A DNA stretch of 64,000 nt. Origin: an uncultured Bacteroidales bacterium. GTDB lineage: Bacteria; Bacteroidota; Bacteroidia; Bacteroidales; P3. Positions 1,526 through 41,390 of this stretch are shown here, piece after piece (the stretch's first letter is position 1; every line of letters begins with the position of its first letter). Position numbers and translations under genes: made by a program. The notes beneath the pieces were generated by a model. The model had not been told where the DNA came from. It saw only the letters and a program-made list of their open reading frames with translations, and ran no database searches. The stretch covers positions 62,001-126,000 of the forward strand of contig CAMVMX010000001.1 of assembly GCA_947168665.1 (NCBI GenBank). The letters are read 5' to 3'.

Positions 1526-3088
1526 ATGATTGACAACACTGGTACACCTTTCAACGCCGTGAGCGGCGAGAAACATTTAGGAATCATCCCCTCCATGGCC
1601 AACCGCCACGGCCTCATTGCCGGGGCCACGGGCACGGGCAAGACCTGCACGCTGCAGAATCTGGCCGAGACTTTCAGCGCCATGGGTGTGCCGGTGTTCG
1701 CCACTGACATCAAAGGCGACCTCTCGGGAGTGGCCAAGGCCGGCGGCGGCAACGTGCATTTCGAGAAGAGCATCGAGGACAACGGGCTGAAGGCCTGCGG
1801 CTTCGAGTACAGGGAGTTTCCCGTGTGCTTCTGGGATGTATTTGGCGAGCAGGGCCACCCGCTGCGCACCACCGTCAGCGAGATGGGGCCGATGCTGCTG
1901 AGCCGCATTCTGGATTTGAACGACACGCAGAGCGACGTGCTGAGCATGGTGTTCCGCATTGCCGACGACCAGCAGTTGCTGCTCCTCGACCTCAAGGACC
2001 TCCGCAAGATGCTGGAGGAGGTGGGCAACAACCGCGCCCAGTATACGACCAGCTACGGCACCGTGGCCCCCGCCACAATCGGGGCCATCCAGCGCAGCCT
2101 CCTGACATTAGAGAGCCAGGGGGGCGACAAGTTCTTCGCCGAGCCGGCCATCGATATTTTCGACTTTATGCAGACCCGCGGCGGTCGCGGCGTGATCAAC
2201 ATCATGGCGTCGGACAAGATTATCAACTCGCCCAAGGTCTACACCTCCTTCCTGCTCTATCTGCTCAGCGAGCTGTATGAGCAGCTGCCCGAGGTGGGCG
2301 ACCTGGACAAACCCAAGCTGGTGTTTTTCTTCGACGAGGCCCACATGCTCTTCAATGGCATCAACAAGGCCCTGTTGGAGAAGATTGAGCAGATGGTACG
2401 CCTTATCCGCTCCAAGGGGGTGGGCATCTATTTCTGCACCCAGAACCCCGATGATATTCCCGACAATGTGCTGGGGCAGCTGGGCAACCGTGTGCAGCAC
2501 GCACTGAGGGCCTACACCCCGCGCGACCAGAAGGCTGTGCGGACGGCGGCAGAGACCTTCCGCGCCAATCCGGCTTTCGACACCACGACGGCCATCACCG
2601 AGATGGGGGTGGGCGAGGCACTGGTGTCTTTCCTCGACGCCAAGGGTGTGCCCACCATGGTGGAGCGCGCCCGCATCCTGCCCCCGCAGGGACAGGCCGG
2701 CGCACTGACTCCGGACGAGCGGCAGCGCATCATAAGTACGTCGATGGTTTATGGCAAATACGACCGCGTGAACGACCGCGAGTCGGCCTACGAGATACTG
2801 AGCGAGCGCATGCAGCAAGCCCTCGAGGCCAAAGAGCAGGCACAGCAGCAGAAGGAGGAGGAGAAACGCCTGAAGGAGGAGGCACGCCAGCAGCGCGAAG
2901 AGGAGCGCCAGGCAGCCGCCGAGGAGCGCAAACGCAAGGCCGAGGAACGCGAGCGGCAGCGCGCCAAGGAGAAGAGCCTGGGCGGCAGCCTGCAGAAGAT
3001 GGTGGTGACCAAGGCCAAACGCGAGCTGGTGAACCAAGCCTTCAAGCTGGGCCGCGGCCTGCTGGGCTCGCTGCTGAAAGGGAAATAG
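1526..3088 (+). CDS. DUF853 / HerA-like ATPase (YjgR family)
   Basis: 520 aa; N-terminal IPSMANRHGLIAGATGTGKTCTLQ Walker A, VFFFDEAHMLF Walker B; C-terminal E/K/R-rich coiled coil. Confidence 0.85.
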   Translation: MIDNTGTPFNAVSGEKHLGIIPSMANRHGLIAGATGTGKTCTLQNLAETFSAMGVPVFATDIKGDLSGVAKAGGGNVHFEKSIEDNGLKACGFEYREFPVCFWDVFGEQGHPLRTTVSEMGPMLLSRILDLNDTQSDVLSMVFRIADDQQLLLLDLKDLRKMLEEVGNNRAQYTTSYGTVAPATIGAIQRSLLTLESQGGDKFFAEPAIDIFDFMQTRGGRGVINIMASDKIINSPKVYTSFLLYLLSELYEQLPEVGDLDKPKLVFFFDEAHMLFNGINKALLEKIEQMVRLIRSKGVGIYFCTQNPDDIPDNVLGQLGNRVQHALRAYTPRDQKAVRTAAETFRANPAFDTTTAITEMGVGEALVSFLDAKGVPTMVERARILPPQGQAGALTPDERQRIISTSMVYGKYDRVNDRESAYEILSERMQQALEAKEQAQQQKEEEKRLKEEARQQREEERQAAAEERKRKAEERERQRAKEKSLGGSLQKMVVTKAKRELVNQAFKLGRGLLGSLLKGK

Positions 3089-3140: not shown

Positions 3141-4725
3141 GATTCCCCGTTAGGGGATAGCGCTTAATAGAAAAGAGTGTGAACGAGAGAAAGATTCCCC
3201 GTTAGGGGATGACGCTTAATAGAAAAGAGCGTGAACGGGAGAAAGATTCCCCGTAGGGGATGGCGCTTAATAGAAGATGTGATTGAGAGAAAACCCCTAC
3301 GGGGTATTTGAATGATGGATTATGGGGACGCTATTAAGAGATAAGCCCTACGGGCTATCTTGTTGAAGTTGGAAGAGGGAAAGATTCCCCGTAGGGGATG
3401 GCGCTTAATAGAAAAGAGCGTGAACGGGAGTAAGATTCCCCGTTAGGGGATGACGCTTAATAGAAAAGAGTGTGAACGGGAGAAAGATTCCCCGTTAGGG
3501 GATGGCGCTTAATAGAAAAGAGTGTGAACGAGAGAAAGATTCCCCGTAGGGGATGGCGCTTAATAGAAAAGAGCATACAGGGAGAAAGATTCCCCGTAGG
3601 GGATGACGATTAATAGAAAAGAGCATACAGGGAGGAAGATTCCCCGTAGGGGATGACGCTTAATAGAAAAGCGTGTGAACGAGAGAAAGATTCCCCGTAG
3701 GGGATGGCGATTAATAGAAGATAAGATTGAGAGAAAACCCCTACGGGGTATCGCGAGGACGGAGAAGGGGGAGCTGCTATTAAGAGGAAAGCCCTACGGG
3801 CTATCTTGTTGATGATGGAAGGGAGAAAGATTCCCCGTAGGGGATGGCGCTTAATAGAAAAGAGCATACAGGGAGAAAGATTCCCCGTTAGGGGATGACG
3901 CTTAATAGAAGATGAGATTGAGAGAAAACCCCTACGGGGTATCGCGAGGACGGAGAAGGGGGAGCTGCTATTAAGAGGAAAGCCCTACGGGCTATCTTGT
4001 TGATGATGGAAGGGAGAAAGATTCCCCGTAGGGGATGGCGCTTAATAGAAAAGAGCATACAGGGAGAAAGATTCCCCGTTAGGGGATGACGCTTAATAGA
4101 AGATGAGATTGAGAGAAAACCCCTACGGGGTATCGCGAGGACGGAGAAGGGGAAGTTGCTATTAAGAGATAAGCCCTACGGGCTATCTTGTTGATGATGG
4201 AAGGGAGTAAGATTCCCCGTTAGGGGATGACGATTAATAGAAAAGAGCGTGAACGGGAGAAAGATTCCCCGTGGGGATGGCGCTTAATAGAAAAGAGTGT
4301 AAACGGGAGAAAGATTCCCCGTTAGGGGATAGCGCTTAATAGAAAAGAGTGTGAACGGGGCAGGATTCCCCGTTAGGGGATGGCTATTAAAAGAAAAGAG
4401 CATACAGGGAGGAAGATTCCCCGTTAGGGGATGACGCTTAATAGAAAAAAGCATATAGGAAGAAAGATTCCCCGTTAGGGGATGGCGCTTAATAGAAGAT
4501 GGAATTGAGAGAAAACCCCTACGGGGTATTTGAATGATGGAAAAGGGGGACGCTATTAAGAGATAAGCCCTACGGGCTATCTTGTCGAAGCTGGAAGGGA
4601 GAAAGATTCCCCGTTAGGGGATAACGCTTAATAGAAAAAAGCATACAGAGAGAAAGATTCCCCGTTAGGGGATGACGCTTAATAGAAAAAAGCATACAGG
4701 GAGGAAGATTCCCCGTTAGGGGATG
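3141..4725. repeat. Array of ~33 short hairpin units (A-type ~51-52 bp period, interspersed B-C pairs)
   Basis: Repeated gattccccgt(t)aggggatggcgcttaatagaaaagag... (about 23), aacccctacggggtat (5) and aagccctacgggctat (5), read directly. Confidence 0.95.
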
Positions 4726-4899
4726 GCGATTATGGAGAGTCGCAATCTCTGCTTGGCGGGCTATGCCGTTGGGTGTTTTCGATGGGTTGTTTCGTGTATC
4801 CATAAACGGAGCCGGTGAGGCGACTACCATTCGCCACACCGGCTGCGGGGGGGGTATTGCTGCGGAGGGTGACATTATCTCACCACTCCGATTCAAGGC

Positions 4900-5661
4900 T
4901 TAGAAGTGGTAGTTGAAGCCGAGGCGGAAGAGGCCGAGATGGTCTTCCAGTGTCTCGGCGTTGAGGTTGGCAACACAGCGGAAAGAATTGGAGGTTCTTT
5001 TGCTTTCGCGGATGTCGCCATCGTCGGTGGAACGATAGTGTGCAGTGGAGGTGGTGAAGGCAAGGCCCAGAAGGTCGACATAGAGGTCGGCCGAGAAGCG
5101 GTTGCTGATGCGGTAGTTGACACCCGGGACAATGGAGAGGGAGAAGTTGGAGGTGGTGGTATTGCCGGTGCTTGTCTCGTCGCGAGCGCTGATAACGCCA
5201 TCGATGGCGGTGCGGAAGGTGTGTGTCTTGACGGCTGGGATGAAGCCATAAGCGGCCTGTGCCTCGGCGAAGAAGGTGAAGCGGTTGGCGGTCAGGAATG
5301 AATAGCGGAAGTAGGGCGCGATATAGAATCCTGTTGAGGTGGTCTTTACCCAGCCCTCGAAATCTGGACTGGTATAGTAAGAATCATAGACACTATAATC
5401 CTTAATGGTGCTGGATGTGAATCCGAGGACGATGCCTACGTGCATCTGCGGGTTGATGTTGTAGCCGAACTTGGGGGCAATGGCGAGGTCGGTGTGGACG
5501 TCGGCGGGCAGGGTGAACTCGGTGGTTGTGGTGCCAATGGAATTGGAGTACCATCCATTACCACCGCTGGTGTTGAAGCCGATTTGGCCTCCGATTACGA
5601 ACTGAGCATTGGCAGCGAAAGCAAAGGCTGCGAGTGCGATGGTCAATACGATTTTCTTCAT
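4900..5661 (-). CDS. Outer membrane beta-barrel (porin-like) protein
   Basis: Signal peptide MKKIVLTIALAAFAFAANAQF; alternating aromatic beta-strand pattern; ends LFRLGFNYHF. Confidence 0.75.
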   Translation of the reverse strand: MKKIVLTIALAAFAFAANAQFVIGGQIGFNTSGGNGWYSNSIGTTTTEFTLPADVHTDLAIAPKFGYNINPQMHVGIVLGFTSSTIKDYSVYDSYYTSPDFEGWVKTTSTGFYIAPYFRYSFLTANRFTFFAEAQAAYGFIPAVKTHTFRTAIDGVISARDETSTGNTTTSNFSLSIVPGVNYRISNRFSADLYVDLLGLAFTTSTAHYRSTDDGDIRESKRTSNSFRCVANLNAETLEDHLGLFRLGFNYHF

Positions 5662-41241: not shown

Positions 41242-41358
41242 CTACATTTTTTCAGACGTATTCACGATGCAAAGATACATTTTTTTGGACGAATAATGGA
41301 AGAAAAACTACATTTTTTCAGACGACCAACGGGGCAGAAACTACATTTTTTCGGACGA
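41242..41358. repeat. Four direct repeats of (c/a)TACATTTTTT(t/c)(a/g)GACGaa at exact 33-bp spacing
   Basis: Copies start at 41242, 41275, 41308, 41341. Confidence 0.9.
41270..41277 (-). promoter_or_regulatory. -7 box TATCTTTG for ATPase operon
   Basis: Reverse complement of caaagata; overlaps the second 33-bp repeat copy. Confidence 0.5.
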
Positions 41359-41390
41359 ACGCCTGTCGTTGTTAACAGAAAGAGGGCTTG

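Follow-up and report, generated by a model that had tools for sequence, protein, structure and literature searches.

The question raised by this locus is what placed 33 short hairpins between two convergent genes. Within the window, the whole stretch of 64,000 nucleotides that was analysed, re-reading and counting located these hairpins at 3145 to 4723 (start of the first stem and end of the last). Their order along the array is AAABCAAAAAAABCAABCAABCAAAAAABCAAA. This exact recount reproduced the 23 A, 5 B and 5 C hairpins of the initial annotation. The reported period of ~51 to 52 bp for A and the pairing of each B with a C some 50 bp on were likewise recovered, with A-to-A distances of 50 to 52 bp (start to start) and C following B in 5/5 cases at 52 to 54 bp. 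The C-to-A distance is 41 bp and the A-to-B distance 45 to 46 bp, and Tandem Repeats Finder returned periods of 51 to 52, 191 and 382 bp. The array lies, as described, between a DUF853 gene, whose stop codon is 53 bp ahead of it, and a convergent gene for a putative outer-membrane beta-barrel protein.

Features of the locus:
1526-3088, plus strand: upstream convergent gene, HerA_C/DUF853 ATPase (PF05872, 699 bits)
3141-4725, no single strand: whole array, 33 units of one REP-like family in two orientations
3145-3260, minus strand: A units 1 to 3, read on the minus strand as CTATTAAG[CA]G-N3-4-TCCCCTA(A)CGGGGA
3294-3354, plus strand: B-C pair 1, ATTGAGAGAAAACCCCTACGGGGT ... CTATTAAGAGATAAGCCCTACGGGCT
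3387-3704, minus strand: A units 4 to 10
3738-3800, plus strand: B-C pair 2
3833-3895, minus strand: A units 11 and 12
3929-3991, plus strand: B-C pair 3
4024-4086, minus strand: A units 13 and 14
4120-4182, plus strand: B-C pair 4
4215-4482, minus strand: A units 15 to 20
4516-4576, plus strand: B-C pair 5
4609-4723, minus strand: A units 21 to 23
3812-4193, no strand: two adjacent 191-bp AABC modules, 98% identical, a recent segmental tandem duplication
4810-4844, no strand: inverted repeat AGCCGGTG...CACACCGGCT, seen in the sequence and also in the sister species G086
4900-5661, minus strand: downstream convergent gene, putative outer-membrane beta-barrel protein (PF13505 just under cut-off)

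A, B and C as a single element

Applied to 16 further tiles of 3.4 kb elsewhere in the window, the same scan found no repeated hairpins, and chance was therefore excluded as the source of the array. A 33-bp tandem repeat of 3.5 copies at 41243-41359 is unrelated to it. A coding repeat was rejected, the longest open reading frame wholly inside the array being 85 aa and without support. A sigma-70 promoter scan gave no match; promoters of Bacteroidota differ.

The initial annotation had distinguished three hairpin types. The counts hold, but A, B and C form one family, with A on the minus strand. On the plus strand B reads ATTGAGAGAAAACCCCTACGGGGT and C reads CTATTAAGAGgaaAGCCCTACGGGCT; these and the minus-strand reading of A follow a common plan of a box CTATTRA[GA][CA]G, 3 to 4 nt, a stem, a TA(A)C loop and the returning stem. 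The shared 5' box, distance, loop and stem plan indicate a single element present in two orientations. Its stem is GC-rich and only ~5 bp long, the CTATTRA box lies ~13 nt upstream of the stem, and a spacer of ~20 nt follows the hairpin. Folding as single-stranded DNA gave the expected hairpin for A, B and C, with modest energies. The CTATTRA box was also considered as a target for unit insertion and rejected: it precedes the 5'-most hairpin in 17/21 runs, and an orphan box follows the last unit in only 9/21, and in several of those nine it belongs to one more, degenerate unit.

Other copies and history of the site

The element is not confined to the window; had the genome held this copy alone, that would have counted against a mobile family. 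Within the genome the unit model gave 66 matches. Further arrays of the same family lie at contig ends (C4, C20 and C17), and single units stand alone on C11 and C24. The C20 array stops ~10 bp before the start of a transposase gene, tnpA. In G086, which has its own REPtron and a TnpA 98% identical to that of C20, a single array connects the same tnpA with the same flank that are split here between C20 and C17; these two contig ends thus appear to be two sides of one array.

G086 also carries an array at the same HerA_C/outer-membrane site, with a different ending; the contig that carries its HerA gene stops there, which leaves only one side visible. The window array sits as a unique insert within a contig of 391 kb, and an array recurs at this site in the sister species; it is therefore not the assembly artefact that had been a concern, although its exact copy number could still be one. 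In three more distant relatives (G060, G064 and G078) the convergent gene pair stands without an array, and its gap of ~90 to 110 bp holds a plain terminator hairpin. The array would thus have arrived after the split from these three and before that from G086, or have been lost in them. The inverted repeat at 4810-4844 probably represents the terminator that the two genes had originally. The 98% identity of the adjacent 191-bp modules indicates that tandem duplication followed at the window site.

At an orthologous site (C6 in G086 and C11 here; loci L237 and L007, respectively), adjoining a gene that resembles a large DNA methyltransferase, G086 has 9 tandem units, one of them degenerate, compared with 2 in the genome studied here. 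The one orthologous site compared closely, C15 of this genome (L259) against an array on C58 of G086, was discarded as a clean empty site: the C15 site carries a different, larger palindromic repeat, and these other palindromes prevented an exact insertion junction from being read there. Among named records, the relatives come from metagenome assemblies of rumen Bacteroidales (L070 and L071).

A Y1 transposase and the hairpins beside it

The transposase gene beside the C20 array is as follows:
L003 (C20), 819-1277: tnpA, Y1 (HUH) transposase of 153 aa, directly 3' of the array

It is one of four Y1_Tnp genes in the genome, each flanked by a different repeated hairpin. The check put forward in the initial annotation, for a RAYT or Y1 transposase encoded elsewhere, was therefore positive as to the Y1 family but not as to classical RAYT, the enzyme being IS200-like and of subclass 1.2. 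The protein matches PF01797 (88.7 bits) and has the motifs DHVH, WQ and YIRCQEEHH, in agreement with DH[VI]H, WQ and Y-x3-Q-x2-HH. Subclass 1.2 was defined by the motifs DHVH, WQ and Y-x3-Q-x2-HH (PMC6006769), and the likeness extends to a length of ~150 aa, low copy number and occurrence in Bacteroidetes. The C20 protein has no Y-x3-NP motif of TnpAREP class 2 and scored 19.2 bits against a cut-off of 80 for the RAYT model NF047646. The NCBIfam RAYT model was far under cut-off for all four Y1 proteins, and the IS200 model was above cut-off for two. In fold, the predicted structure (pLDDT 87) matches the TnpA of ISDra2 and of IS608, whose structures were determined with hairpin DNA, at E values of 1e-8 to 1e-7; a weaker match (E 1e-5) is to 4er8, the TnpAREP-REP complex of E. 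coli. The other three genes (L010, L011 and L012, on C2, C11 and C25) are also subclass 1.2-like, with flank hairpins of the types GTCCC..GGGAC, CAGCC..GGCTG and TCCCC..GGGGA.

Repeated hairpins were found at all 33 tnpA loci examined in the same family of genomes and, within 800 bp of tnpA, at 71 of 80 further loci from named sources (mostly Bacteroidota, some Ignavibacteria and a few others). The remaining 9 had none by this proximity test, some because of shortened flanks. All three subclass 1.2 motifs are strictly present at 71 of these 80 wider loci. Regions 1.6 to 2.4 kb away, which are often coding, had repeated hairpins in 2/56 cases, one of which (L130) is of the same hairpin type; Markov shuffles of the loci, free of the coding effect but unlike real intergenic DNA, had them in 0/800. 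Published accounts differ in that subclass 1.2 is listed with REP "no" in Table 1 of the classification and described as generally lacking IS200-type terminal structures (PMC6006769). No later work on REPs of this subclass was found in the open-access literature.

The hairpins also vary together with the gene. Stem covariation scored 0.495 compared with 0.084 for shuffled stems, both sides of the pairs changing with pairing kept; as extraction demanded perfect stems, the percentage paired is uninformative and the variety of pairs informative. The more alike two tnpA genes are, the more alike are their hairpins (Mantel r 0.37, 0/2000 permutations, on a set holding at least one contig twice, as L053 and L071). 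The unit model, R1, matched 14/15 family genomes whose tnpA reached 50% identity or more, and 35 of the 134 others. Because its training set included some tnpA flanks that it later matched, and extraction demanded perfect stems, the covariation and genome-match results lean towards the hypothesis. Five genomes (G044, G087, G108, G135 and G144) gave model matches with no detectable Y1_Tnp, which would need loss of tnpA or another enzyme and suggests that units outlive the gene. Two others (G105 and G082) had only weak or partial Y1_Tnp matches. The isolate Phaeodactylibacter xiamenensis (L083) carries 38 copies of its own hairpin type over several contigs, with 0 copies of a reversed-pattern control. 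Across loci, same-orientation neighbours outnumber opposite ones by 241 to 43, and the spacing of the former peaks at 48 to 58 bp in 40 of the 63 loci with tandem neighbours, across different hairpin types. A tnpA clade at L056 to L059 has hairpins in which GGCTACC replaces CTATTRA as the box, the distance to the stem being unchanged.

Origin of the array

The array is best explained as a non-autonomous REP family that was spread by its cognate subclass 1.2 TnpA, encoded on C20, and then grew in place by tandem duplication, a reading to which we assign a probability of about 0.8. Among the three roles put forward in the initial annotation, a REP/BIME-like mobile palindrome family gave the best fit, with copies around the genome and an array adjoining tnpA. 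In this proposal TnpA would bind the unit hairpin as single-stranded DNA and would cut and rejoin it at set points close to the box or the tail, copying units into new intergenic sites, the window site among them. A short row of units could then lengthen by tandem duplication, through slippage, recombination or the action of TnpA itself. At the window site tandem duplication makes up much of the increase, and for this a transposase is not required. Host function is most likely neutral or slight, as hairpins at the 3' ends of convergent genes.

Described REP/BIME elements and their REPtrons (TnpAREP/RAYT class 2; PMC2817692, PMC6006769, PMC8266576) are likewise short tagged palindromes in many copies and two orientations, mostly intergenic, with a low-copy Y1/HUH transposase gene flanked by hairpins, each transposase having its own hairpin type. 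The present element shares a short palindrome at several extragenic sites, BIME-like groups with opposite orientations (A on the minus strand, B and C on the plus strand) and a place beside a Y1 transposase gene, on C20, in G086 and at the wider loci. It differs in its class 1 TnpA (Y-x3-Q-x2-HH rather than Y-x3-NP), in having the CTATTRA box ~13 nt before the stem instead of GT[AG]G at the hairpin's 5' foot, and in its short stems and long head-to-tail runs. With the insertion sequences of the IS200/IS605 group (IS608, ISDra2) the enzyme shares a predicted transposase fold, catalytic motifs and, probably, hairpin recognition. Unlike in those elements, no tnpB was seen beside the tnpA genes examined, no near-identical tnpA copies occur in the genome, and the hairpins are numerous and scattered rather than one at each end. 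The tag of the CGTC REPs, reported also in Bacteroidetes and Chlorobi without a transposase (PMC3733652), precedes ATCCCC in only 9 of the 23 A units; B and C lack it, the stems are ~5 rather than 8 to 9 bp, there is no CCA tail, and the present element is associated with tnpA. The BrickBuilt MITEs of Porphyromonas gingivalis, a Bacteroidota species, are likewise miniature elements with a minisatellite, which in their case lies inside an inverted-repeat MITE (PMC4596501).

A passive minisatellite, in which a 3'-end hairpin expanded by slippage and unequal recombination with no transposase, would accord with the near-identical modules, the higher-order periods and the differing array lengths at the C11/C6 site. 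It is nevertheless improbable, as copies of the element lie in either orientation at a number of unrelated sites, and hairpins stand beside tnpA in 33/33 family and 71/80 wider loci and co-vary with it. Less probable still is a transcribed element with a structural role, either a 3' UTR made of many hairpins or a terminator acting in both directions, that would protect or end both convergent mRNAs. Its position just past one stop codon and between convergent genes, and 37 terminator-like sites compared with 2.7 in shuffles, point that way; yet relatives have a single plain terminator hairpin in this gap, other arrays lie between co-directional genes, the family tracks tnpA and not a gene pair, and an Rfam search of the array gave sub-threshold matches only, with no family at gathering score. 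Such a role is compatible with the REP explanation.

Less probable again is a binding platform for a nucleoid protein or gyrase, as might be proposed by analogy with E. coli BIME-2, for which gyrase binding is a precedent (PMC2817692). The same-orientation peak, about five helical turns and common to different hairpin types, would suit it, but a fixed unit length would also be expected from transposition or duplication. This role, too, would be compatible with the REP explanation. A CRISPR or CRISPR-like array, suggested by palindromes at a regular 50 to 52 bp, has a negligible probability: the spacers are themselves repeated rather than unique and the units lie in two orientations, as the initial annotation had argued in part, and the family is tied to Y1 transposases.

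REPtron-type systems are already known, and hairpin partners for subclass 1.2 TnpA are the new part of the REP explanation favoured here. The sole classification found that treats these enzymes gives them no REPs and hence no known substrate (PMC6006769); repeated, covarying hairpins beside nearly all subclass 1.2 tnpA genes are a candidate substrate, and hairpin and TnpA form a testable pair in cultivable Bacteroidota. Arrays of this kind would account for contig breaks at such sites in short-read assemblies. On balance we favour a broader view, held less firmly than that of the array itself, in which subclass 1.2 Y1 transposases across Bacteroidota and neighbouring groups form REP systems of their own, apart from the RAYT/TnpAREP class, each with a cognate short hairpin, a [CT]TA-type 5' box ~13 nt upstream and a tendency to head-to-tail arrays of ~50-bp units. 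The finding would bring the IS200-like branch of the Y1 family into the transposase-REP partnership and, if the broader view is true, these systems would represent a second origin of that partnership within the family.
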